NCBI GenBank assembly: GCA_030549775.1 | Contig: CM060180.1 | Coordinates: forward strand, 87,991,172 to 88,055,171 | Origin: Tamarix chinensis | Lineage: Eukaryota; Streptophyta; Magnoliopsida; Caryophyllales; Tamaricaceae | Reading direction: 5' to 3' | Length of the DNA: 64,000 bases | In this document: positions 5,819 to 62,393 of the stretch, piece by piece | Layout: every line of letters starts with the position of its first letter | Position numbering within the stretch: position 1 is the stretch's first letter | Position numbers and translations under genes: made by a program | Notes under the pieces: model-generated | Seen by the model: the letters and a program-made list of their open reading frames with translations, nothing else | What the model was told of the DNA's origin: nothing | The model's database searches: none

Positions 5819-8800
5819 TGTAACACACCCATTTTTAACTACCAAAAAAATTTTGTTTTAAATAACGTGGAAACTAAAAATACACCTAGGAAAAATAGGG
5901 TGTTACTGCTGAACCTGATACAGGATAGATTTCTACTGCCTACCCCATATAATATACAAGGCTAACACCCAACTAATATTATAACAACACAGTTCATGAA
6001 TATGAAATATATAAAAATTTTGAAAGATTTTTAACATTGAAAGATCTTAACAATCCCCAACTAAATCATTATAGAAATATGAATAGATAAAAGTATAGGG
6101 CTATGTTAAAATAAAGTCACGATATGACAACAAAATCAAAACTACGGTTTGTTACAAACCACACAAGATCTCTAGGTATCCACGCTTTTATGCCTGACCC
6201 TCTACATGTAGGAATGAGTAGGTAGCCGAGCAAATGGGCACATCAGTATGCTACATATTGAGTAAGCCATGTTACTCCGTAAATGGTAACATAGATATGA
6301 AAATTCTATGGTACATAGCTATAATGTTTAAAAATCATCATGATAATGTCATACATTTATAAGTTGGAATTAACCAGATCATGCTAAGATGCAAAAATCA
6401 GAAAACACAAAATATATCATGCTCGAATTCATATTTTTATCACGTAGGTACTAACACATGTAAAAGCAGATTAAATCCAAGCAACACTATGCTTTATTTC
6501 CAATTACTCCATCCATTAGAGTATATCATTTACTTATCCACATATTGAGATTGGCCAATATTTAGATAACATTTCAATTAATAACAAGGTAGGCACATAA
6601 GCCATTACCCATGTGTACAAACCAACTATTATTCTTTTTGGTAATTCAATAATTGTCTATCCTTATCCAATTATTCATATTCACTTATACATTATCTAGG
6701 TCTTATCATCTAATTACTTATCATCTGCATTTTATTATCATTGAGTAATAGACTATGCACTATCCCATGGTCTCATATACAACGAAAGCCTATCTAAAAA
6801 GAACATAATTTTCGAGCTAAAGCCAATCACTAAAGTGGACATAAGTCCTAGTCAAAGCTAAATACCAAAATGGATATAAGTCTATGTCGGATCAAAACAA
6901 TATGGACATAAGTCCAAGGTTTAAGCCAACAACCTAGGTAACCTGACTCTATTGTATTAATAGCCCCTAGTACATCATTAGTGTCTAGAGTGGGTAAGGC
7001 ACCTACACCTCTTAGGATCCTGCCCAACTGTAAAGCTTGAAGGCAGAATAACCCTAGTAGGTAATTGAGGATTAGGTAATGTAGACCCATACATAAATTG
7101 ATTGACTTTCTCTTTACGTGATTAGTAGGTTATTCATAAGGATAAGTGATCACACATGGTACATACAAAAGCAAGTAAAGTATTTTACATGTCTATTGCG
7201 TATCAATCCTCTTCCTTTCATCTCCCTAACAATGTGGGGTTTCCATTCATCCTTGTCCAATATTATGCATATCCATTGTATTATTTTATTCAAGCCCAAG
7301 TTGTGTTTCATTACTATTTTTCAAAACCATCACATGTTATAAGTGGAATATCCATTTAGCCATTACAATACTCATAGATTATGTCATAAATTATGATCCA
7401 TTTACTCCTATTATTATGTAATTAATGCATAATAAAATCTATATTTTATCCCACTAATAATCATAGGACAGTCCAAAACATATCCTCAAAGCATAACAAA
7501 ACAAAAGGTATAGAAACAAGTTGAACAAGTTCATTTATCTAGCCCAACCAGTCGATCTGTTGTACCAACCATTCAATCTGTTTGGGTATATTAGCCCACT
7601 ATTCATATATCAGTCTATTAGTCCTGCCTGAAAAATTGATGTCTTTAAGAATAGAGTAAGACCAAGGTATCTAGAGGCACACCAGTTGATGGGTTGGGTC
7701 AACTAATCGATTGTTGTAGGAATCAAGTGATCTGTTTGACCTAACTAGTCAATCAGTTTGCTTGACAACAATATAAAACCATTAATTTTAGGAATAATCA
7801 TGTAGATAAATCATCCTTAACTACAATAGACCATGTATAAATATAGTCTAACACATTTTTAACTGAATTAACTTGCATATCTCAATATTGAATCATCGAA
7901 CCTATTTTTATCAATTTTCTTTATTTTTAACCAATGTATGAAATTTATCCATCCAAATCAAGTATGTAGGCTATATACATTCATACCCACATATATAATC
8001 AACTTAAAGTGACTCGCATCATACAGGAATACTCATAAGTCATTTTAGAAGAAAGAATCACTTACTTGATGCAATAAAAATTCCCTTAAACCATAAATCT
8101 AAATTGTGAAAATCTCTAATTTTAAAACTTTAAAAAACAAAAAATCTTAAACTAAAAGTTTCATACAAAAGTTATGACTTTTTGAAATTAAAATAGAAGG
8201 GAAAGAATGGCATACCACACTTAAATAAAATGTGGGAAATGCTCAACTAAACCACCCAATCTTTTTCCCAAATCTAACAAAAAATCTTCCTTACTTAATA
8301 ATAATAAGAGACAGAGATATGGAAAGGATTAGAATAGTACCATAACGTTTGAAATACAGAGAAGAGGGAAGTTGAATACAAATACTTTAGGATTTTGGTA
8401 GCTAAAATAAAGGCAAATCAAAGTGATGATTGGGGATATATAGAGCGAATCAATCTAAAGGAATGATAGAGGGTTCAGGAACACCTCAAAAGCCTTAAAA
8501 ACTACCTTTTGAATTTGAGCTAAATGGATAGGTTTTTTCTAAGATATGCTTATCTGTTCTCTAGAGCACAAATGATGTTTCTTAAGGCTCTAGGTCAATT
8601 AAGTCAGATTAGAATACACAAGAGAGGTAATGGAAGGTTAGTATGGAAGAAATTTTCTAGATGTTTAGAGTCGTGCTAGACATTAAAGCATTAATCTTAA
8701 AATTGTGTAGAGGAGAGAGGAGGAAAAAGACAAGGTTGATGTCGTCTCCCCTCCTCAATTGTCCTAATTAACTTCCAAATGAATATGAGGTAATTTTTTT

Positions 8801-9344: not shown

Positions 9345-9540
9345 AAGGTAAAAAGATATCTAAATAACTTAGGATATTTCCTTGAATTTCCTCCTCAGCC
9401 TCCCAAGTAGTCACCTCTATACCATGTTGCGACCAAAGATCTTTTACAAAAGGATGATTTTTATACAAGTCTCTCTCGTCTTTGCACTAAGAAACCTCAA
9501 TGATCACTCTTAATATGTTAGAGATTCATTAAGCTCTAGC
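9345..9540 (-). pseudogene. Chromodomain-like integrase tail of G1
   Basis: Chromodomains at the end of chromovirus integrases bind chromatin marks and guide insertion. Minus-strand translation, with one stop, reads KDERDLYKNHPFVKDLWSQH followed by GIEVTTWEAEEEIQ. This matches the family pattern in which a short basic stretch is followed by PLVKVLW and then E-A-T-W-E. It is immediately upstream of the 3' LTR start at 9208, as expected for the end of the polyprotein. The first strand of the domain is not clear. Between this and the integrase core (9540-9825) only weak translation is seen. Confidence 0.65.
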
Positions 9541-9824: not shown

Positions 9825-10800
9825 TTAGATTACTCTCATTAGGTCTTGAATCGAACAGATGTGCCTTTTCATCTCCTCGATCATTTTAGGTCGCAACATA
9901 AGCATCTCACAAATATCATTCCAACAAAAGGAGCTACAGTAATTTATTCCATACAATGCCTCAAAAGGCACCATTATGATATTAGCATGGTAACTATTGT
10001 TGTAAAAGAACTCAATAAAGTTAAGAAATTCTTCCCAACTTGCCCCAAAGTACAATACACATGCTCAAAGCATGTCTTCTAAAGCCTAAATTCTCCTCTC
10101 TATCTTAATATCTGTAGGTAGGTGAAAATTTGTAGTCATCTTCATTTGAGTACCAAAGGCGGCTTGTAGTTTCTGCCAAAAATGTAACAAGAACCTAGAG
10201 TCTTAGTCAGACATAGTGTCCTTAGGAACTCCATGCTGCCTTACCATATGCTTTTTATATGTTTTAGCCAGTTGCTCTATGTTCCATGTCACCTTCATTA
10301 GTAAAACACGACCGAATTAGTCAAATGGCCTATAATGGATCAAATCCTCCAAGGGTTTTCAGAAGACCAAACATGAAGTCTATTGATATGTTTCCCCAGT
10401 TCCACTTAGTAAATAATAGTGGTTGCACCAACCCTACCTATCTCTTATGTTAAATCTTATCCTTTTGATAGATCAAACTATGGGTAATGAACTCTACCAC
10501 TTCCTACATTATGCTAGGTCACCAATATATCTTCTTCAAATCCTTATATAACTTGTCTCCTCCAAGGTGAACAAAGTAAGAAGTACAATGTCCTTCCTCA
10601 AGGATCCTCCTCTTAAGCTCCACACACCATGGTATTTGATATTGACATCCTTGTGGATCTACCATCTACAATACCCATTTGGGTTCTCTCGAGTTTGAAA
10701 TCACTAACTTTGTTAGCTTAGATCTCCTCAAAGATTGAAGGTATATTAATAAGAGCACTCATTTTTTACTTTTATACTTCAAATGGTAATTATTTCAATG
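9825..10800 (-). pseudogene. G1 integrase, broken
   Basis: Integrase joins element DNA to the chromosome. From about 10640 the minus strand shows the N-terminal region (RRILEEGHCTSYFVH, then GDKLYKDLKKIYW). The two His of the zinc site are kept, but the Cys pair expected near 10480 reads FITHSLIYQ, so both Cys are lost. The core follows: near 10250 HMVRQHGVPKDTMSD gives the second catalytic Asp, and FGTQMKMTTNFHLPTD follows. The open stretch 10055-9825 reads EFLNFIEFFYNNSYHANIIM and PFEALYG, the end of the core with the third catalytic Glu. Stops and frame changes occur throughout. Order and strand agree with RT upstream and the chromodomain-like tail downstream. Confidence 0.8.
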
Positions 10801-10839: not shown

Positions 10840-12130
10840 ACGATCTTGCCAAGGAATGTGATGTCTTTCGGCTAAGTGCATCTACAACCAAATTGGCCTT
10901 ACCCTCATGTAGGTCAATTCCAAATCATAATCCTTGACAAACTCCAACCATTGAAATTTTATTAGATTCAATCCCAGCTATGTTAAGATATACTTAAGTC
11001 TCTTATGGTTAGTGCAGAAATTGCACTGAACTACATGGAGATATTGTCTCTAGATCATAAGAGTGAACATTACAACAACAAGTTCTAAGTCATGCTTAGG
11101 GTATGTTCTATTCATGAAACTTTAGTTATCAAGAGGGAGAAGCCAATACCCTTCTATGTTGGATCAACAAGAAATCAAAACCTTTCTTGGAGTAAACATG
11201 ATACACCTTAAATCCATAAGACCCACTAAGAAATATGAGCACTAGGGATGAAGCCAAATACCACTTCAACTCCTCAAAGGCTCAACTAAAGTTCTTATTC
11301 TACTAGAAGTGCATATCGTTCTTCAACTATTTAGTCAATAGTAGTGTAATCTTAGAAATGTCTATCACAAACATATGGTAGTAGTTTGCTAACTCAGGAA
11401 AACTTTGCACCTCATTGATAGAAGTAGGTACTGGACATTTAGAAACAACTTGAATCTTAGTAGATCCATCACCACTCCATCCTTAGAGATCACATGATGT
11501 AGGAAAACCACTTGATCTAACAAGTAATTGAATTTAAGAGTTTGGCATATAACATGTCGGACCTCTTCAATGCCAAAGTCTACCTCAAATGCTGCTCAAG
11601 CATCTCACAGTTAATAGAGTAGAAGAAGATGTTATTGATGAACACTATGATGAATTAGTCCAAGGAGGGATGGAATATCTAGTTCATAGGAGACATGAAA
11701 GCTATTAGAGCATTATTGAGTTTGGAAGGCATCATAATGAACTAATAATGGCCAACCCTTATCCCAAATGCAGTCATAGGGATGTCTTATTCTACTAACC
11801 TCAATTGATTACAGCTTGATTGAAGATCAATATTAGAGAACACCTTAGATCCATTAAATTGATCGAATAAGTCATCAATCCTTGGTAATGGATAACGGTT
11901 CTTCATCATCACCTAGTTCAATGTTCGGTAGTCATGCATAACCTCAAGCTCCAGTCCTTCTTCTTTACGAGCAAAACTAGTGCTTCCCATAGTCATATGC
12001 TTGATCAAATATAACCCTTCTGTAAAAGTTCCTCTAACTTAGCCATGAATTCTTTTATCTCCACAGGTGCCATATGGTATGGAGCCTTAGGTACTGTCTT
12101 TGTCCTTGACATACATCCACGGTTAACTCG
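10840..12130 (-). pseudogene. G1 reverse transcriptase and RNase H, broken
   Basis: RT signatures on the minus strand run from about 11960: [29 protein letters not shown] and [14 protein letters not shown] (first catalytic Asp kept), then DIPMTAFGIRVGHY. The active-site box near 11650-11620 reads FIIVFINNIFFYS where the family has FIDD, so both catalytic Asp are replaced by Asn. This is what G-to-A changes in GAT/GAC codons would give. RNase H follows and ends near 10950-10850 with EGKANLVVDALSRKTSHSL, almost the same as the end of the RNase H in G2. Several stops interrupt the frame. It cannot be active. Confidence 0.8.
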
Positions 12131-12398
12131 ACTTTTTAAATAGGTTGAATTATTAAAATCGCTACATAAAATATGTTTGGCAACTCATGAACCACGATTA
12201 TCTATTCCAATGGAGACTTAGTTGCTTAGGTATGTCTAATACTGCATAGTTAGAGTGGATATCCCTTACATATGAGGTTACTCAATGTAAATCCAACAAG
12301 ATCCTTGTGGAGTAATTAGGTTCACAATTCTCGTATGAAATCGTAATACCTTTTAGTCATCGTAGAACTACACATTGTTGTATACAATGGATTAGGGC

Positions 12399-12890
12399 TC
12401 AATACTTCTCTAGCATATCAATACCAAATATCACATCAAAATCAGGTAACTCTAGTTCTTTGAAGTCCAAAGAAAAATCTATTACTCCCACTACCAAAAT
12501 AACTCCTTGATAAAATCTAGAGTATACAATCCAATCCCCCAATGGCAACACCTTAGAAGTAGAGATACTACTAGAAGGAGATAAAGAAGCTCTAGCCACA
12601 AATGCATGTGCAGCAAAAGAGTGTGATGCACAAGAGTTAAACAATACATAAGAAAAAAGGTTAGAGATAACAAGCACACCAATCCTTTTCATTCCTAAAA
12701 GGGGTGAGGTCTTGGACCTTAGGCTTACTAACACAACTAGGGATACTAGTTGGCAATGATAAAACTCTCTAAGTTTATAGTTATGGCTACTAGATAGAGT
12801 CGATACTTTAACATCTAGTAAGAATCTACTTGATGTTGTTACTACTAACTCAATACTCATATGCTCTGTTTCCCCCTTTGCAACATCCAT
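12399..12890 (-). pseudogene. G1 aspartic protease region
   Basis: This is the longest open stretch of the element, 163 residues. The retropepsin core reads VLFNSCASHSF at about residues 104-114, where the family has LFDSGASHSF or LFDTGATHSF; the catalytic D is N and the G is C, so the active site is destroyed although the frame is open. The second half, ELELPDFDVIFGIDMLEKY, matches the conserved L-x-DFDVILGMDWL end. The N-terminal half has a TTSSRFLL segment and a NYKLREF segment that also occur in the G2 copy at 38191-38406. It lies between gag and RT. An open frame with a dead catalytic site suggests chance survival rather than selection. Confidence 0.8.
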
Positions 12891-12894
12891 GGTA

Positions 12895-13870
12895 CATCAC
12901 CTGGTTACACAAGCAGTCTACCCCCAGGTGATCTATCTTGCATTGCTTGTAGTGGTAGTGACTCTGTTTTATAGGACCCTTAGATAACCCTCCAACATAA
13001 GGTACAATCCCCACACTTTAGCCATATCTAGGCATAATCTATGTTTTGAAACAATCTTCTTCCCATCATCGGGATGCTTACAAAGTTCAAACTTTCACTT
13101 GCTTTTGAACAGAGCACTTCGGGCTTGGATTACTTAGGATGTCGCAAAAGCTTGCTTGTACATCCGTAACATATCTAGGGAAGTAACTAACAACAAATGA
13201 TTTTGGTTTCAAATCCCTAGCCTAATCTTGAAACAATGGACTTGCATTTTCTTGTTAGCTTATAATTCCTAGGCAAACTTGACCAAGTCCTTAAATAGAG
13301 TATAGTTCCCTTCAGATGACATGCACCCTTGGTGAAGCACAATGAATTCAACATAATTGGTCATGGAAAGGTCAGTCAGGCAAACATGGGCTTACAATGC
13401 CTCCTAGAATGGTACACATCCTATAGGTTCTCCACCCCTATGTTAGACACTCCTCCATTATGCGTTTTCCCTTCCTCTCAGATAGTATACTACCACATCA
13501 ACCCTACTATCTCCTGGGCATCTGTAAGTTATGAAGGTCTTCTCCATCTTTAAGACCTATTATTCCATGATGTTAAGGTCCTTCTTTCCCTCAAAGAATG
13601 ATGAGTGATGACCTCTAGCCCTCTTAAGACAATCCCCTAAAACTTCTGCAACCACTAGCGCCGATTGAAGTTGAGGTGCTTAGATTTGGCCCTTCATATA
13701 GACTTTTACTATCCCCATGAAAGCTTCAATGCACTCATAGCAGAGGTGAGTGGCCGTTGTGTCCTAGAGGCTAAAAATAGTTAGGGACAAAATTTATTCT
13801 ATTGAGTAATAACACTAGCAAAACAACTATCACACATTATATCTATGGCATTGTCTGAGCCCCACTCTTA
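12895..13870 (-). pseudogene. G1 gag remnant with degenerate zinc knuckles
   Basis: Gag forms the particle around element RNA. Minus-strand translation around 13650-13450 gives FFEGKKDLNIM, then KMEKTFITYRCP and VVVYYLRGR, matching the plant gypsy gag pattern (F-x-G-x-x-D-P, then M-E-x-x-F, then A-x-Y-x-L-x-G). The same blocks occur in G2 gag at 37440-37600. Near 13000-12900 two degenerate CCHC-like knuckles occur, read as KQCKIDHLGVDCLC and a later MYHGCCKGG. Several stops and frame changes are present. The region directly precedes the protease. Confidence 0.7.
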
Positions 13871-14151: not shown

Positions 14152-16685
14152 TGTAAAACCCCTATTTTTCACTAGCGAAAAAATTCATTTAAAAAAGTGT
14201 GGAGAGTGAAAATACACCTAGCAAAAATGAGGTGTCATGGTTGTACTTGACAAAAGGTAGACATCTGTTGCCTACCCTATTTTAGATATAAGGTTAACAC
14301 CAACGAACCAATTTTTTTAAAATATAGTGGGTGAATATGAATTATATAAAAGTTTTGAAAGATTGTTTAATTTGAAAGGCCTTAATGGTTCCCAACAAAA
14401 TCATTACGAAAATATGAGCAGATAAAAATATGGGACTTCATTAAAATGAAGTCAAGGTATGACAGTAAAATCAAAATCATGATCCATTACTGACCCTATA
14501 AGATCTCCATATGTCCACGCTCTCAATCCTCGAACCTAAGATTAAATAAGCCCCTTACTAGCCATCCCTAAAAACATTCAAATGTCCCTCTACTCGTGAG
14601 AATGAGTAGGTTATCGAGAAATGGGCACATAAGTACGCTTGGGATTATCGAGAAAGGTTGGGATTAATCAAAACATGCTAACATTAATAACTAAGACAAC
14701 ACAAAATATATAACGCTTGATTTCATATTATAACTAGGTAAATACTCATATACGTAATATCAGATTAAATCCAAGTAACCACTAGAGTTTCTTTCTGATT
14801 ACTTAGTCCTTTAGATTATACAATTTCCTTATCCACATGTTAAGATAGGTTAATATTCATACAACATTTTAGTTAACATCTGATTAGGCACTTAAGATAT
14901 TACGTACATGTATAAATCAACTTTTATTCTTTTTGGTCATTCAACCATTTTCTATCCTTATCTAATAATTCATATTTACTTATTCATTATCTAGAACTTT
15001 ATCATCCAATTACTTATAATCGTTATTTCATTATTATCGAGGGATGGACAGGCACCACCCCATGGTCACACATAGAGCAGAATGCTTTCCAAATAAGGGA
15101 TATATCCTAGTTGACCTAGGAAACCTAGGAAACAAAACCCTTAATTACTGATATCCTCTAGTACATCATCAAGTTCTAGAGTAGGTAAGCCATTGGGATC
15201 TTTCAAGATCCTGCCCAAAGGTAGCTAAATGCCCTAAGGCAGACTAAGTCACAATAGCTAATCAAGGATCGGGTTACCCTAACCCATATGTAACTTGATT
15301 GTCTTTCACTTTACATGAATAGTATATTATTCATAAAACTATTGATCACACAACTCTCATATAAGAGCAAGCAAAGTATTTTCCATCTTTATTCCAAATC
15401 AACCCTTTTATTTCCATCCCCTCAATCATATGGGGTTTTCGTTCATCTTTTTCTAATATTATTCAGATCCATCATATTATTTTATTCAAGCTAATGCTTT
15501 GTTTCATTAATCTTTATCAAAACCGTCACATATCAAGTGGAATACCAATTTAGCCTTTATAATACTCATAGAGAAGAGAAAATCGATGATAACATCATAG
15601 GATAACTGTCACATATCAAGTGGAATACCGATCCATCATAAAATTATGACTCATTTACTCTTTTAATAAGGCCATTAATCCATGATAAAATATATATTTT
15701 ATTCCACTAACAATCATAAGATTTTCCCAAACATAGCTTCTAAGCATAACCATACAAAAGAAGAGAAAACTATATCAACAAGTCAAACTGGTGGATCAGT
15801 GTTGCTCCACTAGTCGATCGGTCACACTAACTACTTTGTCAGTTTGGGCTACCAATGAATTCATTTTCACAAACCATTAAACTATTCATAGATCATTCAA
15901 TTAGTCATACCCAAAAAGTCGACTCGTTTAAGAAGAAGGCAAGAATAAGGTCTCTACAAGCTTAGTTGATGGGTCAAGTTAACCAGTCAATTGTTGTAGG
16001 AACGTGTCGATCGATTAGCCTTAACACAACATCAAACAATTAAATTCAGCTAGAATCATGCTTATAAATCATTCTTAACAATATTAGAACATGTAAAAAC
16101 ATTATCTAACACATTTTCAACTAAATTAGCTTAAATATCTCAATAATGAATTATCTTGTACTATATTTATCAATTATCATTCTTTTTTATCTTATATATG
16201 AAATCTATCCATCCAAATAACTATACAGGCTATATACAACCATGCTAAGATATAGAATGAACAAAAAGGGTCTCACATTATGATGGAATACACAAATCAT
16301 TTTAGAAGGAACCATCACTTACCTGGTGTACCAAAAAATCTACTTAAATAATAAACTCCAAATTGTGAAAATTGTAACTTTTAAAACCTTAAAACAAAAT
16401 ATCTTGAACTAATAATTTCGTAAAAAAAATTATTAATTTTAAATTTAACATAGAGCAAGAAGAAATCTGTACCATTATTAAAGCAAAATAAGGAAGTACT
16501 CAACTAAACCACTTAATCTTTTTCCAAAATCTAACACTTTCTTACTTAATAATTAAAAAAAAAGTGACTTCTAGAGAAAGTATCAAAAAACTATTAGAGG
16601 TTAAACTACAAGGTTCAAAATGTAGAGAAGAGGGAAGGTGAACATAAATACTTAGGGATTTTATTGGATGAAAGATAGATTAATA
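14152..16685 (-). repeat. 5' LTR of G1, truncated
   Basis: It starts TGTAAAACCCC at 14152 and is recognisably the same sequence as 5819 onward for about 2.5 kb. It stops matching near 16680, at the point equal to about 8415 in the left LTR, so about 0.8 kb (the U3 start on the minus strand) is missing. Element A starts at 16686. The conserved stem-loop has a perfect 6-bp stem here: CTACTC at 14590-14595, 8 nt, GAGTAG at 14604-14609. Confidence 0.8.
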
Positions 16686-18129
16686 TGTAATAAAAATTTT
16701 TTTTAGCTAAACCTAATCATGAGTAACTAATATCAAAACCTAATTATAACCTCGGGAATTCATTTTTCTATCTTACCTTAAGTCTTTAATTCTAAATATT
16801 ATTTTTGGGTTATTAATATTTTATTCCCAACTTAAATGTAATCCTGAATAACTATTTGACCTAAATATAAATCTAAGCCCCCACTTTTTCCTTTCCCTTT
16901 TTCCTTTTTTTCCCTCTCCATATCTTGTTTAATTATTTTTTTTTCTCTCTATGCCGATCACCTTACCCTTTTTCTCCCCTTCATTTCCTTGGTGCATGTC
17001 TCCCTCTACCAAGCCTATCCTTTCCCCATCAATTCACAACTCTGGCGATTGTGGGTTGGGTTTCATTTTTTTGCCCGATGGCAACCTCCCTTCTTTTCCT
17101 CTCTCTTTGTATGCAAATATATATATACATATACCTTATTTAATGACCAAAATGTGCCTCCACCAAAACACTCCCAAGCTTGGGCAATTCCGACCACTTC
17201 TCCCCCCTCGTTTCAGCCATATTTTCTAGTTCAACCCCTAGCAACTACTGGTTGTGCCGTTGCTAGCCGTCCCTTACTTGACAACCCCAACTAACCCCCT
17301 GGTGTTACATAAGTTTTAGCTGACACCTCCTTCGAATTAGGGTTTTATTTTTCCCCATTCTTTTCTGCTCCATTACCATATTCCTTAATTAATTATATTT
17401 AAAATTCTAATTATCATTTTTTAATAGTTCTTAGGTGATATTCTAGAAGTTTCAAAAGAAGCTGTTGAGGATAACCGTGCTTAGAGATCGCAGCCTTTAT
17501 TAGCAAGGATACTAGTTGATTCTTCTGGTTTTGTGTCAAATGCTTGTATGATTATGTGTGTTATCATGCTATTGTTATTATACTATTAAAATGCATGTTT
17601 TTGATGATATGATATGTTAACATTAATTAGATGATAGGAAGGAAGTAAGAATAACAAAATATATACTGATACGATGATAGTAGGCTAAGTAATATTTTTT
17701 GGATGAGTGTAAATTATGGGAGAGCAATATGGGCCTAATAAATTATTATAATTGGGAAATAATTATATTTAATATGTTTGTTGATAAAGAGGCATTTGAA
17801 AATAATGATATTGAGGAAATGAGATTTTCAAGAAATAAGGGTTGTTGGCTATCTTTAAGGATATTTTGATCAATATGGGTGAATATGGGAATTTTTGTAT
17901 TTTAAGGTGTTAGATGGATTAAAATATGCCAATAATATGCCATGACATGTTTGGAAGTGATTATGAACTTCATAATATCTTCATATGAAAAAATACCCTA
18001 ATTTTGGAATATTAGCCTTAAAATGGTACAATTATTATTACATGGGTAACCTGTTAGAGTTAGGCCACAAATTTCAGATGCGTTGTTGATATCCGTATTT
18101 AGGGGATTTATATAATTAACTATTCCATA

Positions 18130-18262
18130 GGTAATAATGGTGGTTGGATGTATTTTCTCGGGGTTATATGTTATTAACCATTCCACCAATAAGAATAGTG
18201 GTTAGGAGCGTTTTACCTAGGGGTGGAATAATAGTTCAACTGGTTGAGAATAATGGGGTCCA
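18130..18262 (+). repeat. Stem-loop block in A LTR (related to B array)
   Basis: Three diverged units of the form TTCCA-N-TAATAATGGTGG or CCACCAATAAGAATAGTGG (18183-18201) are spaced by about 50-60 bases, with GGTTAGGAGCG-like text between. Similar blocks occur in the other A LTR (27001-27075) and in B LTRs. Confidence 0.6.
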
Positions 18263-18419
18263 TAAACTGAATGTAAATAAAATACTGTGTTATATGATGT
18301 TCAAATATTACGAAACTCAAATATTAATTATCTTATAGTGCTTTTTATATCTCGCATGTATACTACTTTTTACTATAAATGTATGTAATTATATGTTTTT
18401 CCGATTTGGACTATATTAT

Positions 18420-18500
18420 TCCCTTACTCTGTACATAGTATATTGATCATCCCTTTCATGGGTACTGCTCATTCCCATAAGTAGATCTACCCTATTTTTT
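18420..18500 (+). promoter_or_regulatory. Conserved LTR stem-loop module (A copy)
   Basis: This reads TTACTCTGTACATAG, TATTGATCATCCC, TTTCATGGGTA, then CTGCTC (18465-18470), 8 nt and AAGTAG (18479-18484). The last stem is imperfect here. The order is the same as in families B and G. Confidence 0.6.
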
Positions 18501-18853
18501 ATGGGATTGATGATTATTAGCTTAATGTGCTTGCCTTGGGTGAGTTCTAAATGAATTTATAAAGGGTAAGGTTATCCGGATATCTCTATCTCTCCATGGA
18601 CTTTTAGTTTTCTTTTTTCACTATTTATTCTTTTCTCCCTATTTCATATCATATATCATGGTGGAATAAAGTGCTTCCTACACCTGATTCCTAGGTATGA
18701 GGTTACTTTTGCCTTACATCCGACATAGATTGGGCATAGGGAGTACCTCTTTAAAATTGAATGCAGCGTGACACCCTTATGTTTGTGTTTTGGCTTCCGC
18801 TATTAGCTCCTTTAAAATTAAAATTTTAAGTTCCAAAATTTTGGGGTGTTACA

Positions 18854-20403: not shown

Positions 20404-20529
20404 TGTAATACCTTAAATTTATAGCTAAACCTAATCCTGAGTAATTAATACCAAAATGTAATTCCAACATCGAGAATTTATTCTTTTATCTTACCCTAAA
20501 TCCATAATTCTAAATCTTAGCCTAATCAA
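20404..20529 (+). repeat. 3' LTR of element A, first piece
   Basis: It starts TGTAATACC and matches 16686-16800 through blocks such as AGCTAAACCTAATC and CATAATTCTAAAT. It is cut by B1. The flank before B1 is ATCAA (20525-20529). Confidence 0.8.
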
Positions 20530-21371
20530 AATCTTACCCAAAACCCTAATTTAGGGAATCATGGCCAAATAAGAAATTATTAGGAAGACTAATTAAATAA
20601 ACTATTTTCTTTTTATTATTATGGATTTAATTAAGGTAAATCTAGGAGAAATTATAAATAATTTTAAATATGAAAAAACTTGAGTATTTTGCTAATTAAA
20701 ATAGAATTTAAGGAAATTCTTTAAAAATTCCTAAATTAGCCTAAAAATAGAATTTAATTATTATTTTTAATAGTCATATTTTATTAAATATCCCAAATTA
20801 CCCAAAATACATTTGATTATGGTAATTCACCTTTTCCTTTCTTTTCCTTTTTCCTTTTTTCCTTTTGTCCCCGTCTTTTTCCTTTTCTTTCCTTTCCTTC
20901 TCTTCCTTTTTTTCTCTTTTTCCCTTGACTTGGGCCAGCCCACTGGCCCAACTTCTCCTCCCCCAACACGACCCAGCCTCCCTGCGCCACTCCTTCCCTC
21001 TCCCAGTCAATTCGGCCCTCCTTTTTTTTTCTTTCTTTCTTCTTTTCCCCTAAACAGTCGGTCCAGCCCTCTCCTCTCCCACCTATGTCATCTTCAACAT
21101 CCAGCGCGCACCTACAGCCCGAAATCAGTACCGGAAAAGCCTTCACCAACCACACCGTCCACTCCATCCATTCCTCCCCTCTCTTCCCGGTTGACTTACC
21201 TACCATTTTGACAAGTCCATTCCGCCTCTCTCCTGCGTGCCATTCCTTCTCCCGACAAGACATGGCCTACACATGTAGACCTGTGCCAGCCATTCTCGTC
21301 AAACAGAGACCCATAACCCTTGCCCCTCTACTCTCCCACTCCTCCTTGTCATTTTCCCCTTTTGATTGGCC

Positions 21372-21380
21372 TATAAATAG
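21372..21380 (+). promoter_or_regulatory. TATA box of B1 LTR
   Basis: TATAAATAG preceded by ATTGGCC, at the same LTR position as TATAAATAC in B2 (40620) and TATAAATA in B3 (63441-63448 on the minus strand). Presence in all three copies supports a promoter, with transcription starting in the GC-rich stretch downstream. Confidence 0.65.
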
Positions 21381-21884
21381 CCCTAAAGGCTTCCATAATC
21401 GAGTTTGGATTTAGTAGCCAAGAAAAATGACCCAATGACCACCGCCTAATCAGCCTGTTATTCCTCCGCCGTCGGCCGTCTTTGCCGCCCACTCAAGCCA
21501 CCAAAACGCTCCCTGCACCGTCGTCTACACAACCGAGCCACCAGCCTTCCTTACCTTGCCTTGCATGAGCCACCTCGGCCGTGCGAAATCACCTTCCCGA
21601 ATAGTCCATTTGACCTTGTGCGGCCCCTTGTGCCGCCGGTTGCCGTCGATTCCGCCACTTGTAGCACCGCCTCTACCCCCCAAAACAACCAGGGAATCTT
21701 GCCCTACCACCCCACACCTCCATTTTCCCCTACTTCCCTTTCCCCTAGCCTCCACATCCATCTCTCCACTCCCTCCTTCCTCTGCTGCCGCCGGCTCCAC
21801 CACCCAGCCTAGGTTGTCTCCCAACTCCTTAACCCCTAAACCCAGTATATAAAAGTGTTAATGTTTTTAATATTATTAACTATT

Positions 21885-21902
21885 ATTATTAGTGTTATTA
21901 TG

Positions 21903-21943
<41 letters not shown>

Positions 21944-22099
21944 TACTACTACTATTATTACTATTATGCCCTAACGTTTATTCCAGAGAATTTCTAATTA
22001 ATGGTATTAATTCAGGCTAAAACCTTGTTGTGTTATTATTATTATTATCACTATTATTATCCTTATTATTATTATTACATTATTATTATTACCACCACT

Positions 22100-22140
<41 letters not shown>

Positions 22141-22149
22141 TATTATTAC

Positions 22150-22186
<37 letters not shown>

Positions 22187-22256
22187 GTTATTATTATTAT
22201 TATTATTATTATTGTTATTTTTATCATCATCGTCATCATTATTATTATTATTGTTA

Positions 22257-22287
<31 letters not shown>

Positions 22288-22299
22288 TATTACTATTAC

Positions 22300-22335
<36 letters not shown>

Positions 22336-22603
22336 GTTTATTACTCTAACTATGATTATCATTATTATTATCTCTATTCTTATTATTATTTTCAGTATTC
22401 TTATTATTATTAGCATTATTAATATTATTATTATTATCATTATCATTCTTATTATTATTTTCATTATTATGGTTGTGGTTATTATTATTATTATTATTAT
22501 GATCATTATTATTGTTGTTATTCTTGTTGTTGTTATTATTATTATTATTACTACTATTACTATGATTTCTATTATTATTATCATCATTATTATCACTATT
22601 ACC

Positions 22604-22646
<43 letters not shown>

Positions 22647-22660
22647 ATAATATTGTTATT
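21885..22660 (+). repeat. (ATT)n/(ATC)n microsatellite in B1
   Basis: Almost 800 bases of trinucleotide repeat, mainly ATT with a run of ATC near 22098-22140 and scattered ACT and GTT variants. It creates long false open frames rich in Ile, Tyr or His on both strands. The equivalent positions in B2 and B3 also hold trinucleotide repeats but with different motifs. Confidence 0.95.
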
Positions 22661-24019
22661 AGTAATATTGAAACCCTTACTTTAATACTATGAATATTAC
22701 TAAGACTTACTTTGATTAGTAGTGATTCGATTAACCATCTTGAGAATAATAATAACTCTACCTTTTAATTATAAACTACTATTATTAATATTAGCCGTAG
22801 TATTAGGCCATGATAGGGGTAAGATAGGAAATTATGGTAATTTCGGTAGAGGGATATTAACCCATAGTATTTCCCTCTTATAGGTGAATCGAGTCAAAAC
22901 CCTCAGGAAGCATAGGAGCTTGCTCCAAGCCCGACGATGTTTTAGGTAAGGATGTAGCTAAAGCTGTCTATGTGTTACGTGTTTTACTTGCCTTGGATTC
23001 CTTGTACTATTAATATGTTGTGTTCTATATGCTACTATCTTATCTGTTTTAATTTGTAGCGCAGCTTGGAAACGAGGTGTGTTCTCATGCTCTTATCCGG
23101 TATGTGCTAATATGGATATGCTGCAAGTATGATGTGATGTGATGTGGCCCTTAGGACATGCATGCTAGGTTATTTGATGTGGTTTTGTGGGATGGAAGCA
23201 TGAAAGAGAAAAATGGGAACGTAAGATAACTAAGGGGAAGTAAGTTGGCTAACGTAGGTAAGGATGACCTAAGTAATCTATGATCCATGAATGGATGAGT
23301 AAAAAGGGAATTAAATAAAATGAAAGAGTGGGAGAAACAAAGGTTTACATGGGAGGAACTAGGGTTTGCATGGAAATATTAGGGTTTGTCATGGTAGAGA
23401 TCAAGGGATTTGCATGGGGAGGTTAAGGTCCGCATGGGGGTGAACCTTATATATGGAAAGTTACTTTGGGACGTGGGGAAGGCAATAGAAGGTCTGTTTG
23501 GGTGACTGGAGTCTCGAGGTGAAAAATAGTACGTAGGATTATATAAGGGTACCTAGGGACCGAATAGGGCTTGGGAGGAAACCTTAATTTGAGAAGGTGG
23601 AAAAAGAAAAAGAAAAGAATAAAAATAAATGAGGAGGAGTGAGGTATGAGTGGAGAGTTGAGTCTAAAGGTCATGACACATGGAGCGTTAAAATAGTGTG
23701 GGTTGTGAGAGGCAGAGAAGGAAGAGCCACATAAGCCCAAATTAGGGTTTCTAGAGAAAACCCGAGGGTAAGGTGGTGAGTGGACCTTGGGGTATAAGGT
23801 GGTGGGCCTTTACCCACACACTTAGGAGTTGGGTTCCCAGTGTCAGAAAGTGGGTTAAAGGATGGATGTCAGGGTGAGTTAAGAGGTGCAAAAGCCACAA
23901 GAAATGGGACACGCTCTACTGGAAGGATAAGTGCGGATATAGTTAGCCATGCATGTCAAGGGTGAAATTCTTTCGAATAAGATACGTTAAGACACTAATC
24001 ACTTAAAGAGAAATATGTT

Positions 24020-24315
24020 GAGCCGGACCCAGACCGGTCCACTAGCGAATAATAGTGGCCAGGAGTATTTTTCCCTGCATAACAGTTCCACCGGCTATAA
24101 TAGTGGGGGTTTCCATGCTCAACAAACCAAACATAATAATGATAAGACATGGGAAATATAGTGGAGCACCATGAGAGTCAGGGACAGACCGGTCTACAGG
24201 CGAATAATAGTGGCCAGGACACGTTGCCCTGCATGACCGTTCCACTAGCGAATAATAGTGGCCAAAAGCATTATGCCCTGCATGACCGTTCCACCAGCTA
24301 TAATAGTGGGGTTCC
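24020..24315 (+). repeat. Stem-loop array in B1 LTR
   Basis: Five diverged units. Two have a perfect 6-bp stem, CCACTA-8 nt-TAGTGG, at 24039-24058 and 24242-24261. Others read CCACCGGCTATAATAGTGG (24089-24107) or start from GGTCTACAGG. Between stems is a shared GGCCAGGAG...CCCTGCATGACCGTT-like text. Similar arrays occur in B2 at 44985-45385 and in A LTRs. Confidence 0.75.
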
Positions 24316-24495
24316 CGCACTCACATGGATTGATAAAAACTATGATGTGAATCGATTATATTTATCAGAGATCTAAAGAATAAGTTATCTAGTCCATAGC
24401 CGGTATTGTTTATCTATGTTATCGCATGTTGTCCACGTAATTATGCCATGTATGCTATGTCATGTGTTTTTCTGTATGTTAGGCTTAGTGTATCT

Positions 24496-24592
24496 GTTAC
24501 CTTACTCAATACGTAGCATACTGATCACCCGTTTCATGGGTCCTGCTCATTCCCACGAGCAGAAGACCCGTCTGAGTTTGTGCAGGTAGGGG
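24496..24592 (+). promoter_or_regulatory. Conserved LTR stem-loop module (B1 copy)
   Basis: Order: GTTACCTTACTCAATACGTAG, then ACTGATCACCC, GTTTCATGGGT (ACCC-7 nt-GGGT stem), then CTGCTC (24543-24548), ATTCCCAC, GAGCAG (24557-24562), a perfect 6-bp stem, then GACCCGTCTGAGTTTGTGCAG. Present in every B, A and G LTR whose downstream part is complete. Confidence 0.7.
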
Positions 24593-25018
24593 ACGTTGTC
24601 TTCGATGCCTACGATGCTAATGAGGCATCGGGTAGGGCTGAGAGTTGAGCCTGGACCTAGTTCGGGGGTTGAGAGTGATGTGGCCGGAGTTCATCCTCCG
24701 TTTTGTTTCCCTGTATTATTTTATTTTATTTTATCCCGCTGTATGATGTCCTCTGACATTTGGAACTTTAAAACTATACTTTTGGGATGTACCTTTTGAT
24801 TTCCGCACTCTGATTCCATATGAATTATGTTTTATTAGTGACTCACATTTGATGTTATTCTTTTTTATCCTTAGCACTTAGTATCAGGACGGTAGGAGTG
24901 AACCGATATGGTATTAAGTGTGGCGGTAATGCCCCAAGTTTACGGTTTTATCTTTCTACTTCCGCTAAAACCTTTTAATTAAATGAAAATTTTTAGTTGT
25001 AAATTTGGGGGTGTTACA

Positions 25019-33463: not shown

Positions 33464-36400
33464 TATAACACCCCATCTTTTCTTAAAGTTTTGAATGGGA
33501 GATTATGCAAATTTTAGTGTTTGATTTTGATTTGATTTAAGGTAAGATTGGATTTGAAATAAGGTTGGACAATTAAATTTAATTAGTTTTTTAGGTGAAT
33601 TGATCGCCTAGTTTGCTGTTTTACCATAATAGGTTTTACTCGACTAAACCTATTAGTTGGTTGGGAAATCAATCTACTAGCTTGTAGTATGGCTAACTGG
33701 TTAGCCAAGATGATCGACTAGTTTATTGAGCTAAGAATATTGTTAAAAAAATATTTTTGGTTCAATTTTCTTATACTAAAATTGAACCTTGTTAACCTAT
33801 GCTAAATTCTTCTTAAGACTTTTTTCTCATTTTCATAACACATTTGGCCTTTGAATACTACCTCATATCAATATGAGAAGTCAGTTTGAAAAATAGAGGA
33901 GCATGACATTAATTTTATCCGTTTAACCTCTCTCCTCTTCACATTCTAAGATCATTACTTCAATCTTAGACTTGACTCTTCTTAGCTTGGAGATTTTTTC
34001 CACACTAATCTTCCAATGCCTTTCCTGTGAATTTATTTTTTGAACCTATTGAAATGCGCTCCTCCATAATCACCATTTGAGATCTAGAGGATAGGTAAGA
34101 ATATTTGGGAAAAAATCTTCCTATTTAACTTCAATTCAAATAGTGGGAATTAAGGTTTTTATTTTGTTCTTTACCACAGTGTGGTTCATATTGATTTGTT
34201 GGCTATATATATACCTAATCACCACCTTTATTCACTTTTCTTTGACCAGCAAAAATAACTAATCTCTCAAGTATTCACCTTCTCTGTCTACATTTAATCC
34301 TTAAATTTGAATTCATTTCACTCCTATAATCATTTCTCTAGCTCCCTATTATTTCAATTCATAAGTAAGAAACTATTAGATTTAGAAAAATGGTTAAGTG
34401 TTTTAGCTAAGAATCCTTTGTTTTCTTCATTAGAGTGTGGTATGTTCATTCTTTTAAGTCTATTTCAAGTTGAACTTATAAAACTTTATTCGCAAGTTCC
34501 TAGGTTAAAACATGTGTTTTCAAGGTTTTGGAAGTTGAAGATTTTATAGGTTGAGGCTGTTTGCTTAATGAAGTTTTTTTTTACATCAAGTAAGTTATTC
34601 TTACTTCTAAAATGGGTTATGGGTAATATTGTATGTTATAGAATTCAATAATTTTTATATTACATTTTAGCATGAATATATAACTTATGGAACTAATTTG
34701 GATGGTTATATTGGGTTATGAGAAAAAAAACATGAATCTTGAGGAAAGGTTAGGTTGTGATGATTAATGATGAAATGTACACCTAATGTAAGCTAAAAAT
34801 GTTTTATGTGAAGTTAGAACATATCTCAATGGGGTATGATAAAGATTTATAAGCTTGATATACATAAAAATGAATGTTTGGTGTTGTTGTAGGGTAAACC
34901 AATAGATTGGTTAGGACAAACTAATCGATTAGTTCCTAAAACTATAAACTGTTTCACCTTATCCTTCTATTGGTTAGCTTATAGAGACCTTCCTCTTTCT
35001 CTCTTCTTAAACCTTTCAACTTGTTGTGTAGAATTGATCCACTAGTCTATGAACAATCATCTAGTTTTCCCAAACTAATCGACCAATACATGGAAAAGTA
35101 TGGTTTAATCATGTAAAACTATGGTATAACCGAGCCAAACTGTTCGAATGGTTGGCCAAAAGTAATCAACTTATTCGTGTAATTGATTAACAGGTTATAC
35201 CAGACCAATCAATTGGTTTGGCTAGTTTTTAATATTTTTTTCCAATTTGGTCCAATTATGCTTTGAGGATATTCATGGGGATTATTTAAAGGATAAAATA
35301 GATATAGTATTATGAATTAATAATCTAATAAATGGATTAAATTGACCATGATTTATGACATACTCAATGAGTATTGTAATCGCTTAATGGGTGTACAAAT
35401 ATGAGATGTGATGGTTTTGAGAAAATAAGTAATGAAGCATGACATGTGCTTGAATAAAATGATGTAATGAGAATGATTAACATTAAACAAGCATAAATGG
35501 AAATGTCACACATAGGTGGGGGATAGATATGGATTAATATGGGAGAAACATGTGAATGTCTTGCTGGCTCTTTATATGGGCCTTGTATGATAAAGCAATA
35601 TCACAAATAATGTAGTAATCACGTAAAGCAAAAGACAATCAAACTATTTATGCGTTTGGGTTACCTGAACCTTGATTAGCTACACAAAGTTCATCTATCT
35701 TTTAGCATTTACTAGTGCCTTTCGGCAGATTCCTAATAGATCCCGTTACCTTACCTACTTTAGACATTGTTCATGTGTATCAGGAAGTATTGATACTAAA
35801 GGGTCTAGTTTCTTATGTGGTCAACTTCTGCACAGAATTACGTCAATCATTGTTGCCTTTAGCCTTAACTTATGCTCATTTTGGTGATTGGCTTCGATCT
35901 GAACTTTATGTCCCTTGGATTTGATAGCCTTTCATGGTATATATGATAATAATTGTCAAAGTTGGGTAATGTGGGAGCAAATGGTTTGTATGATAGTAAT
36001 GCTAAAAGTTTGCACGGATGCTTGGATAATATCATAAATGAATAGCTAGTTAATGAATGGAAAGATTGACTTGATGTGACCTATAGTAATACATGGATAA
36101 GGATGGTATAACCTAATTGGTTGTGTAGGTTGGAAAATAAACCCTAGTGGTTAACCAGACTAATCTTCTTCGTACATATGTGATTATTAATGTTATTATA
36201 CTATGATGATAAGCATGAAAAATTCTCATTGGCCTCAGCTATGCATGAGAGTACATGTTCATGCAATATTACACTTACTTATATGGCAATGGCCTGACCC
36301 ATGTTAAGTATGATGTCCATGTCATGATAGAATCTTATATGCTTGTGACTTCCATTAGGAGGGAACATGGATTACTCTCTACGTAGCATACTGATATACT

Positions 36401-36876
36401 AGTTTACTCAGTCACATGCTCATTCCTAAAAGTAGAGCGCCATGTGCAGGTTTTTGGGGATGGCTAGTAGTGGTGCTACCTTAGCTTGGGATTAGAGCTT
36501 GATAATATGGGCATTCAAAGGAATTTGTGGAGTTCGTGATCGACCATGTTTTGGGTCATGGCCTAATCTAGTTTTCTAATTAATATGGCCATGTATGCTT
36601 AACTTATCATTTTTCCAACTTTTGACATTGTTAGAGACTACCAAAATCCATTATTGTAAATGAAATTTTAAAGGTTGATGTAACATAATTTTGTGTACTC
36701 TATTTTAAATTGGGTCTTCTGGTTTTACCTCATATATAATATAGGATTGGTGGTGAATGTCTACCCTATGTTAGGTCTGGCAGTAGCAGACCATTTTGCC
36801 TAAGTGTATTTAATGTTTTACCACTTTTTCATTATATAAAATGAAATTTTTTAATAGTGAAAAAGGGCGTGTTACA
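33464..36876 (+). repeat. 5' LTR of G2 (3.4 kb)
   Basis: Starts TATAACACCCC (family start is TGTAACACCCC; the G is A here) and ends GGGCGTGTTACA. Blocks such as GGAGATTATGCAAATTTTAGTG at 33500 recur at 48380 in the 3' LTR. A TATA element (CTATATATATA) lies at 34203-34213. Short ACTAGTCGATTGGTT-like motifs occur at 33590-33730 and 34895-35225. The conserved module is at 36372-36452. Open stretches 34307-34549 and 35672-35924 are chance. Confidence 0.85.
36372..36452 (+). promoter_or_regulatory. Conserved LTR stem-loop module (G2 copy)
   Basis: Reads TTACTCTCTACGTAGCATAC, TGATATACTAG, then ATGCTC (36416-36421), 8 nt, AAGTAG (36430-36435), then CCATGTGCAGG. The stem has mismatches at its ends in this copy. 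Absent from the shortened 3' LTR of the same element. Confidence 0.6.
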
Positions 36877-38190: not shown

Positions 38191-38760
38191 GTGGTAGAAT
38201 CCAGAGGAGCTAGTCTAGAGCTCATAGTACAAGATTCATTCAATAGCTATAACTACAAACTCAGAGAGTTTCTCCCGCTACCAACAAGTTTTATAAGACA
38301 AGCTAGTCAGCTAAGAGGCGAAAGGCCTCACCCTTTCCAAAAGGTGCATGTATCAGCTAGTGCCATGGAAGTTCCTTTGAGAGGATGCCTTAATGTGATT
38401 AGCTAAGCAGAGGGATATCATCATGCTAGTGTGGTGATTCGTATGTTTAACATCTCTACTTTTCCAACGTTTATATTATTTGACTATGGTACATCAAACT
38501 CCTTTATGTCATCTGCATTTGTAGCTAGAGCTGCCATATCTCCTTCCCACAGTATTTCCACTTCTATTATGTTTCTTTTGGGGATAGGATTACATGCTCT
38601 CAATTCAATAAAGGATTAGATTTTGTTGTTGGGGAAATAGAATTCCTATTATACCTCATAAACTCAAGTTGCGTGATTTTAAAGTGATCATCGGGATGTA
38701 TATGTTAGGGAAGTACTGAGTGTTGATTGATTGTGCATAAAAAAACATGGTTCTATGAGG
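38191..38760 (+). pseudogene. G2 aspartic protease region, broken
   Basis: Open from 38191 to 38406 and again from 38431 to 38619. The first piece has the NYKLREF segment also seen in G1. The second has the retropepsin core as ILFDYGTSNSF (family LFDTGATHSF); the catalytic Asp and Gly are kept but the intervening Thr/Ser is Tyr. It continues VARAAISPS and GIGLHAL. After a stop at 38617 the end of the domain (VIIGMYMLGKY-like) is readable near 38685-38715. G1 and G2 differ in which active-site residues are lost, which shows independent decay. Confidence 0.75.
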
Positions 38761-39715: not shown

Positions 39716-40619
39716 TGAAATACCCCAAAACTTAATTTTAAGAATTATAGCTAATTAACAATTTATTATGGAATTAATTAAATTAATTATTTTTATTAAA
39801 ATAAAAGGAAATTAATTAAGGCAAATATAGATGAAAATGATAAATATTTATATTAGAAAAATTTAGATATTTTGCTAATTAAAATAGAATTTATGAAAAA
39901 TCATCCAAAAATCCTTAATTAGCCTAAAATGGATTTAAATATTATTAATTTTAAATATTCCAAATATTCAAATTAATTTAACCAACCCAAATCCCTTATT
40001 TTTCTTTTTCCCTTTTCCTTTTTTCTTTTCTTTCCTTTTTCTTTGTTTTTCTTTCTTCTTCTTTTCTTTTTCTTACCTTTCCCTCCCCTGACCTGGGCCA
40101 GCCCAGCAGCCCAAGCCCCTTCCCCTTCCCCTTCCTTCTCCTTCCCATATTTGTTCCCCTTTTTTCCTTCATTATCCTTTTCCACGACCGAATCCTTCCT
40201 TTCCTTTCTTCCTCTTTCAGCACAGCACAGTAAGTTGCGTTTCATTTAACTCCCAGCTTACCGGTCTAGTTCTTCCTCTTCTTTTCTTTTCTTCCGGGCC
40301 ACTAAGTCCGCATCCTTCTCCTTCTTCCTTCTTCCCCCTTCGACGTCGACCTACAACTACAACGCCCAAAGCCCTTAGTTTTTCACTGCAGGCCTTGCCC
40401 CTTTGACCGTCCATTACTCTTCTTTCTCTTCCCTCTGACTCGCAGGCTACCTTGACCCACCCTATCTCACATTTTTTTTCACACACGATTCCCTTCTTCC
40501 TGCGTACGACCCTACCACGTTTTTCTTGAATTTCTCTAACAACCATCACTATCGGTGATCCTAACCGACTGACTTGATCCTCCCGTTCTTTGCTCTAACC
40601 TTAGCCACCTCATTTGCTC

Positions 40620-40628
40620 TATAAATAC
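40620..40628 (+). promoter_or_regulatory. TATA box of B2 LTR
   Basis: TATAAATAC preceded by TTTGCTC, at the same LTR position as in B1 and B3. A GC-rich stretch follows in each copy. Confidence 0.65.
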
Positions 40629-41304: not shown

Positions 41305-41330
41305 TTAATTTAATTATAATAATAATAATG

Positions 41331-41400
<70 letters not shown>

Positions 41401-41910: not shown

Positions 41911-41922
41911 AATATTATCAAA

Positions 41923-45385: not shown

Positions 45386-45581
45386 CTTGAATGGAATTAA
45401 TAGAAAGCATGGTGTGAAATGATTATTGATAAGAGATCATTAATTAGCTAATCTTGACTATAAATGGGCTTTGTATATTTTTCTGGATGATCATATGCAT
45501 TTATGTTAACATGTTGATCTTTATGCTCTTTTTATTTTTCTTCATGGTTTATGTGATTTTATGTGTTGGCCTTAGTGCATT

Positions 45582-45674
45582 GGTTACCTTACTAAGTACG
45601 TATCATACTGATCATCCTTTTCATAGATGTTGCTCATTCCCACGAGTAGCAGGCCCTTCTGACTTTGTGTAGGA
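45582..45674 (+). promoter_or_regulatory. Conserved LTR stem-loop module (B2 copy)
   Basis: GGTTACCTTACTAAGTACG, ACTGATCATCC, TTTTCATAGATG, then TTGCTC (45630-45635), ATTCCCAC, GAGTAG (45644-45649), then GCCCTTCTGACTTTGTG. The stem forms with two G-U type pairs as RNA. Confidence 0.7.
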
Positions 45675-61729: not shown

Positions 61730-61824
61730 TACCTGCAATAGATCAGACGGGCCTTCTACTCGTGGGAATGAGCAACACTCATGAAAAGGGTGATCAGTAC
61801 ACTACGTACTGAGTAAGGTAACCT
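61730..61824 (-). promoter_or_regulatory. Conserved LTR stem-loop module (B3 copy)
   Basis: Minus strand: GGTTACCTTACTCAGTACG, with a perfect CAGTAC-5 nt-GTACTG stem, GATCACCC, TTTTCATGAGTG, then TTGCTC, ATTCCCAC, GAGTAG (61775-61756), then GGCCCGTCTGATC. This is the copy in which the first stem is perfect. Confidence 0.7.
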
Positions 61825-62154: not shown

Positions 62155-62234
<80 letters not shown>

Positions 62235-62243
62235 AACAACACC

Positions 62244-62300
<57 letters not shown>

Positions 62301-62309
62301 AACAACACC

Positions 62310-62374
<65 letters not shown>

Positions 62375-62393
62375 TAATAATAACAACAACAAA

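Follow-up and report, generated by a model that had tools for sequence, protein, structure and literature searches.

The long terminal repeats (LTRs) of several otherwise different retrotransposon families of Tamarix chinensis share a short ordered block, a sequence-conserved element that probably acts as a folded RNA and whose function is unproven. The stretch analysed here, referred to as the window, comprises 64,000 nucleotides and is a stack of old, nested LTR elements, in a source genome of 1.32 Gb assembled in 28 contigs, twelve of them large. The first-pass annotation had placed the block at seven positions, in families A, B, G1 and G2, and all seven copies are present: a profile built from 65 genome copies, none of them from the window, recovers each one, with E values from 1.4e-21 to 4.1e-11, as follows:

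24500..24587, plus strand, block copy B1, E 1.4e-21
45587..45673, plus strand, block copy B2, E 6.5e-17, HP2 arms TTGCTC/GAGTAG
61733..61818, minus strand, block copy B3, E 3.9e-20, HP2 arms TTGCTC/GAGTAG
18422..18500, plus strand, block copy of the A 5' LTR, E 1.5e-18, one HP2 pair broken
6195..6267, minus strand, block copy of the G1 3' LTR, E 6.2e-17, two HP2 pairs broken
14575..14641, minus strand, block copy of the G1 5' LTR, E 4.1e-11, HP1 region decayed, HP2 arms CTACTC/GAGTAG
36371..36451, plus strand, block copy of the G2 5' LTR, E 1.1e-14, two HP2 pairs broken

Profiles made from a single family (B, A or G alone) match the window copies of the other families as well, with E values from 6.5e-20 to 0.04. 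The weakest cross-family match is the G1 copy at 14.6 kb (0.013 with the B profile, 0.04 with the A profile), which in this comparison does no better than a chance-like match at 4364-4405 (0.015 with A).

The block comprises more than the single 6-bp stem-loop reported at first, designated here HP2: a 7-bp hairpin, HP1, occupies the TACGTAG...TACTGAT part, and a further one, HP1b, lies between HP1 and HP2. The elements of copy B1 are arranged as follows:

24507..24523, plus strand, HP1, intact form CAGTACG-TAG-CGTACTG, with five of seven pairs in B1 (pairs 3 and 6 broken)
24526..24542, plus strand, HP1b, CACCC-GTTTCAT-GGGT(G), outermost pair broken
24543..24562, plus strand, HP2, CTGCTC-ATTCCCAC-GAGCAG, intact, the stem-loop first reported
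24581..24587, plus strand, 3' edge of the block, TGCAGGT, with TGYAGG frequent there in all families

The arm sequences originally cited for B1, B2, B3 and the 14.6-kb G1 copy are correct on inspection. The 6-bp stem, described as common to the seven copies, is intact in four but broken in A (arms CTGCTC/AAGTAG, one pair lost), in G1 at 6.2 kb (CTACTC/ATGTAG, two pairs lost) and in G2 (ATGCTC/AAGTAG, two pairs lost). Likewise, the GTCTGA/TTTGTG segment given as the last part of the block is a feature of the B group but not of A or G, which share approximately TGYAGG at that place.

The host elements were delimited by their LTR ends, which are of the TG...CA type, here TGTAACACCCC...GGGGTGTTACA, and identify them as LTRs; the LTR 3' ends of G1, G2, A, B1 and B3 show 0-1 mismatches, and that of B2 shows two:

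5819-about 8396 (3' LTR) and 14152-about 16662 (5' LTR), minus strand, G1, LTR 3' ends matched, 5' ends not located
about 33464-36876, plus strand, G2 5' LTR, from LTR ends, the 5' end with 1-2 mismatches
about 16690-18853 (5' LTR) and from near 20405 (3' LTR), plus strand, A, end matched, starts placed by eye
about 20529-25018, plus strand, B1 LTR, end GGGGTGTTACA at 25008-25018, start placed by eye from the B2 match
about 39716-46113, plus strand, B2 LTR, 3' end with 2 mismatches, 5' end with 1-2 mismatches
3' end at 61310, minus strand, B3 LTR, end matched, 5' end not located

After the 5' LTR, primer binding sites are present in G1, TGGTATTAAAG at 14148 (minus strand), and in A, AGGTATCATATC at 18856, the latter of the iMet type. 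Similar sequence follows the LTR in 4 of 24 G copies, two of them of the GGTTGGTATC type, and in none of the eight B copies (L001-L008), which therefore look like solo or 3' LTRs. B1 is probably a solo LTR nested within the 3' LTR of A, and B2 probably a solo LTR nested within G2. A probable, imperfect target duplication, ATCAA/ATTAA, flanks the B1 insertion at 20529-25018.

Coding remnants of the Ty3 order were seen in G only, and the internal regions of B were not identified. The Pfam search of G returned RVP_2 at 12402-12896 (minus strand) and 38407-38616 and SH3_Tf2-1 at 47738-48004, all above the cut-off, together with RT_RNaseH_2 at 46201-46392 and Integrase_H2C2 at 10522-10665 (minus strand), both below it; the order of these pol domains fits Ty3. 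Pfam gave no match for the G piece taken as reverse transcriptase, 12008-12184 (minus strand), and none to a chromodomain at 48045-48197 or 9346-9486 (minus strand), two pieces that by eye resemble the chromodomain of Tekay/Del-type chromoviruses. In element A, the LTRs enclose about 1.55 kb, in which no stop-free piece exceeds 87 aa. A Retrotrans_gag fragment at 54730-55002 (PF03732, E 2.9e-06) derives from another element.

The block is abundant across the genome. A 23-mer from it, TACTCAGTACGTAGCGTACTGAT, has 6,044 exact genome copies and the HP2 stem-loop YTRCTCATTCCCACGAGYAR has 11,496, with 0 for the reversed control in both cases. At 20 sites hand-chosen among the first 32 matches of the 23-mer listed, all on a single contig (C1), HP2 is recognisable 20 times, and the middle hairpin reads by eye CACCC/GGGTG in 15, CATCC/GGGTG in 2 and broken in 3. 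When 3.1-kb loci (8 B, 30 A and 30 G) are compared colinearly between families, conservation is highest at the block; these loci were picked by the likeness of their block to the window copy of their own family, a choice that favours the block somewhat. Colinear matches at the block occur in 240 of 240 B-A locus pairs (next highest 25-nt bin, 130), in 213 of 240 B-G pairs (next bin, 44) and in up to 433 of 900 A-G pairs (next bin, 96); secondary peaks of conservation fall at the LTR end and at 200-600 nt upstream. The flanks on both sides have mostly diverged past alignment, yet the block can still be aligned between families. Its description as a shared module of otherwise different LTRs is borne out.

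The position of the block within the LTR is also nearly constant, most copies having some 420-540 nt between it and the LTR 3' end. Counted from locus position 1500, the distance to that end is 445-455 nt for A (27 of 28 copies), 520-546 nt for B (all 8) and 501-541 nt for G (19 of 24); of the 30 loci in each of A and G, two in A and six in G gave no end and are excluded from these counts. Whole LTR lengths in the window range from about 2.2 to 6.4 kb, a factor of 3, and the near-constant 3' spacing despite this variation suggests a constant R/U5 behind a variable U3. The position of the block is compatible with R/U5. Of 30 G copies, 11 have a TATA[AT]A motif 80-100 nt before HP1, the sole 20-nt bin reaching 20%; A and B have no such bin near the block. 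The block motif has 0 matches in viral contigs, and four scattered bacterial or archaeal records that carry it were taken as chance. Searches of the literature outside subscription papers turned up no description of the block, and PMC11656987 gave none in the part consulted; a kiwifruit NAC gene paper that matched the sequence strings concerns unrelated coding DNA.

Little-decayed B and A copies are able to fold, as predicted from their sequence, into three adjacent hairpins. Eleven copies, hand-picked mostly for little decay, were folded: the 61-nt core of five B/B3 copies forms HP1, HP1b and HP2 with z scores from -4.6 to -5.7 and 0 of 500 shuffles as stable, and the block of the A copy L015 behaves alike (z -4.7, 0 of 500), while a second A copy, L029, reaches -1.8 and four G copies fold weakly (-0.5 to -2.9). 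Averaged over the copies of each family, a longer stretch gave modest mean z values of -1.3 for B (10 copies), -1.7 for A (30) and -0.4 for G (32). The block of the B copy L004 folds best of 194 windows, none of the 193 others being as good; in L015, the block is surpassed by 2 of the 193 others. RNAalifold returned no structure for 36 G rows and, for A, one different from the three-hairpin arrangement. The antisense strand of the block folds about equally well in B, and for the G-U variants in L122, L087 and L015 the sense strand folds better than the antisense.

Of 160 copies from seven groups, 61 keep every HP1 pair and 71 every HP2 pair (window copies, 1 of 7 and 4 of 7, respectively). In a separate count on 80 copies, the HP1 and HP2 cells are paired in 84.9% of cases versus 12-49% when the partner is slid. 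Two further hairpins, HP3 in G (GGYCAT/ATGGCY) and HP4 in B/B3 (CGATGCCT/AGGCATCG), are suggestive; by eye their changes are again mostly C>T/G>A. A pseudoknot between the HP2 loop and a downstream GGGGATG fits B and G1/G2 by eye, not A, and fits G3/G4 worse; it was set aside. The Rfam search gave no gathering hit in the window, hammerhead included, and at E up to 5 on four loci it produced two weak matches, both outside the block and neither a hammerhead.

Selection of the pairing through compensating changes is not supported. The first-pass annotation had read the varying arms of HP2 as compensating changes and hence as a structure kept at the RNA level, to be abandoned if no significant covariation appeared above phylogenetic expectation; on that measure the argument is refuted for HP1 and HP2, as the two sides of the highlighted HP2 pair vary independently and no pair significantly exceeds the phylogenetic null. 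The arm changes cited are all C>T/G>A transitions: the GC to AU change at HP2 pair 3 comprises two transitions at symmetric CTG/CAG sites, and the G-U versions of HP2 are single C>T changes. Counted in the first 100 genome matches listed, with a pattern that allows only transitions at four positions, HP2 pair 3 is GC in 36, GT in 41, AC in 14 and AT in 9 (expected 38.5, 38.5, 11.5 and 11.5; Fisher p 0.34), and pair 1 is CG in 74, TG in 16, CA in 7 and TA in 3 (Fisher p 0.40). The sides being independent, the pattern first reported is what independent decay yields.

Covariation was assessed with a custom-written, R-scape-like test combining Fitch counts, a FastTree tree, random replacement of substitutions on the tree, an APC-corrected G statistic and 60 null sets. 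Two sets were used, (i) 136 copies (133 distinct) and (ii) 169 copies (166 distinct); for the latter, an E filter of 1e-8 admitted 33 of the 36 G3/G4 loci and removed three, and nine copies outside the seven groups were tested and are absent from the group counts. Twelve B2 copies and the 20 listed 23-mer sites were read and left out of the test. Every HP1 and HP2 pair gave E > 340, though their variable sides carry up to 38 substitutions, and within families the pairing stands at the level given by independent shuffling. In a pair count on 80 copies (A1), three measures lean slightly positive, a kind of result that relatedness alone can give: cells changed on both sides were matched by 10 of 500 shuffles, the covariation score by 15 and the paired cells by 29. 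Two measures do not, the number of pairs and the pair types being reached by 444 and 417 of 500 shuffles, respectively. C>T or G>A changes account for 443 of 964 inferred substitutions (46%). A bias of G-U over A-C pairs was discarded as a sign of selection, with 42 wobble-keeping C>T versus 37 pair-breaking G>A events. The copies probably differ mostly through neutral decay since they were inserted, which leaves covariation tests with low power for selection in active elements, and such elements may still use a structure here. More generally, in repeats decayed by C>T/G>A, G-C pairs turn into G-U and A-U spontaneously and easily mimic compensating change.

The sole real exchange of letters, absent from the first-pass annotation, is in HP1b, and it amounts to one evolutionary split. 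Pairs 1-3 are mostly C-G, A-U and C(U)-G in B, B3 and A, versus G-C, U-A and G-C in G1-G4, none of these inversions being a C>T/G>A change. At pair 2, 74 of 75 A/B/B3 copies have A-T and 81 of 85 G copies have T-A; pair 1 is C-G in 65 of 75 versus G-C in 64 of 85; and pair 3 is C-G or U-G in 73 of 75 versus G-C in 40 of 85, with 26 of the 85 G copies unpaired. The hairpin is weak in G, where pair 4 is mismatched in 82 of 85 copies and about 1% of shuffles attain the same end-to-end pairing. Among 4,851 column pairs, pair 2 takes second place, and its E value of 3.75, the best in HP1b, reflects that a single split between clades carries everything.

The explanation we prefer, tentatively and with slightly less than even confidence, is a sequence-conserved leader element near the start of R/U5, read as hairpins and letters by the Gag/reverse-transcription machinery. 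On this view, related plant Ty3/gypsy-type elements of two proposed clades (B, B2, B3 and A versus G1-G4) carry a single conserved cis element, about 60-90 nt long, in their LTRs. Lying near the start of the transcribed R/U5, it would be part of the RNA's 5' leader and, should R include it, would recur at the RNA 3' end. There, it may be read for packaging, dimerisation or strand transfer by a factor that recognises specific sequence, most likely the Gag/reverse-transcription machinery that the families share. Such a role would account for the stricter conservation of letters than of pairing, which suggests reading by sequence, perhaps together with structure, and for the occurrence of the block in A, nearly without coding room, as in parasites of shared particles. 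A leader RNA element is favoured on four grounds: where the block lies, the hairpins next to one another, the letter exchange in HP1b, and the fact that A carries it. A bolder extension, which we consider rather improbable, makes the three-hairpin leader, with its kept and in HP1b partly inverted letters, a common packaging or strand-transfer tag of autonomous and non-autonomous plant Ty3-type families; if true, one particle set could move all tagged families, which would help explain coding-poor LTR families at many thousands of copies.

The main rival to the reading as leader RNA places the element at the DNA level: host factors would bind the block as double-stranded DNA, as a downstream promoter element, for example at the ACGT core of TACGTA or the CTGCTC/GAGCAG dyad, and the hairpins would be a by-product of the dyads. 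It accommodates the conservation of letters rather than pairs, the fact that every hairpin is also a DNA dyad, and the comparable folding of the antisense strand in B, but three abutting dyads with different letters sit badly with it, HP1b pairs 1 and 2 are kept with inverted letters in the G clade, unlike a fixed DNA site, and the G-U variants favour the sense strand; we regard it as unlikely, if a serious contender. Shared descent was originally set against function as the competing option. The families are indeed related, as their shared LTR ends and similar 3' spacing indicate, and the HP1b inversion is a single split; however, descent and function are not alternatives, the block being alignable while its flanks mostly are not, and this divergence around a kept block requires constraint in active lineages or repeated exchange, so that a block inherited without present function is quite improbable.

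A similarly small probability is given to a control of 3' end formation, in which hairpins in R would bring poly(A) signals into proximity: inspected copies of each family have T-rich stretches roughly 100-250 nt past the block, but T-rich sequence is common in the AT-rich DNA here. Still less probable is a splice acceptor, composed of a TACTGAT-type motif and TGYAG|G, which we take to signify a branch point and a 3' splice site, with the hairpins shortening the gap between them from 55-62 nt to about 15-24 nt. By eye, a CTRAT- or TTGAT-type motif and TGYAGG recur at about the same spacing across families, and the hairpins lie between both motifs with a suitable spacing once folded (24500-24587); nevertheless, no intron start was identified, the start predicted for G would lie only about 50 nt upstream of HP1, and the pyrimidine tract is weak in G.

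Several known systems offer parallels to the leader element preferred here. The TAR and poly(A) hairpins of HIV are located in R, retrozymes carry hammerhead ribozymes in their LTRs, and the BARE elements are of the Ty1/copia type. The likeness to HIV consists in hairpins in the R of an LTR, where the block's placement would be the same, and no homology is claimed; retrozymes share structured RNA in plant LTRs, and the G copies contain a CTGATG string, but no hammerhead or other Rfam family exceeds its threshold in the window. According to the accessible part of PMC5454406, hairpins and a pseudoknot in the Ty1 5' leader (TIPIRT) serve RNA dimerisation and packaging, and that leader structure was probed and compensatory mutants tested. 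In both cases, an LTR-retrotransposon RNA would bear cis-acting hairpins close to its 5' end, whereas the block is known from DNA copies, shows no covariation and is likened to Ty1 without sequence comparison. Barley BARE1 and BARE2 share packaging and dimerisation signals, and a Gag-less relative is packaged in the particles of the other (PMC3735527, accessible part); the likeness lies in a coding-poor relative, here A, that keeps RNA signals, the present elements being of the Ty3 type and known from sequence alone. Hidden Markov models have revealed LTR modules (ends, TATA and poly(A) signal) conserved in variable LTRs (PMC3601003, accessible part); these and the block are short conserved units in variable LTRs, and the block is not described in that part of the source.

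Plant Ty3-type LTRs are usually too variable to model, and for the plant LTRs of Metaviridae this failed because LTR length varies (PMC3601003, accessible part). A block that stays fixed amid mostly changing surroundings helps to locate these LTRs, solo ones among them, and offers a testable candidate signal for the choice of RNAs that are packaged or copied.

Further features accompany these LTRs. In A, B and G, an inverted counterpart of the LTR 3' end, ...GGGGTGTTACA, lies about 75-100 nt before it, giving a terminal hairpin:

24920-25018, 46025-46113, 18768-18853 and 5819-5910, terminal hairpin sites, with partners GTAATGCCCCCGAGTTTAC in B, GTAACACCCCATTTTT in G and GACACCC in A

B LTRs contain a second strong fold at 24870-24922, where CACTTAGTAT...GTACTAAGTG encloses a CGGT/ACCG stem (z -5.5 for window 1890 of L004), and the A copy L015 has another strong-fold stretch near 1740-1760. 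Long trinucleotide arrays (TTA/TAT or AAC) lie within or beside B-type LTRs at 21867-22669, 41362-41891 and 62184-62392. Upstream of the block, 48-50 bp tandem repeats with AATAGTGG occur in B1 (24200-24309) and B2 (45223-45334), and A carries AATAGTGGGGTCC at a like place, a feature shared with B1 and B2.
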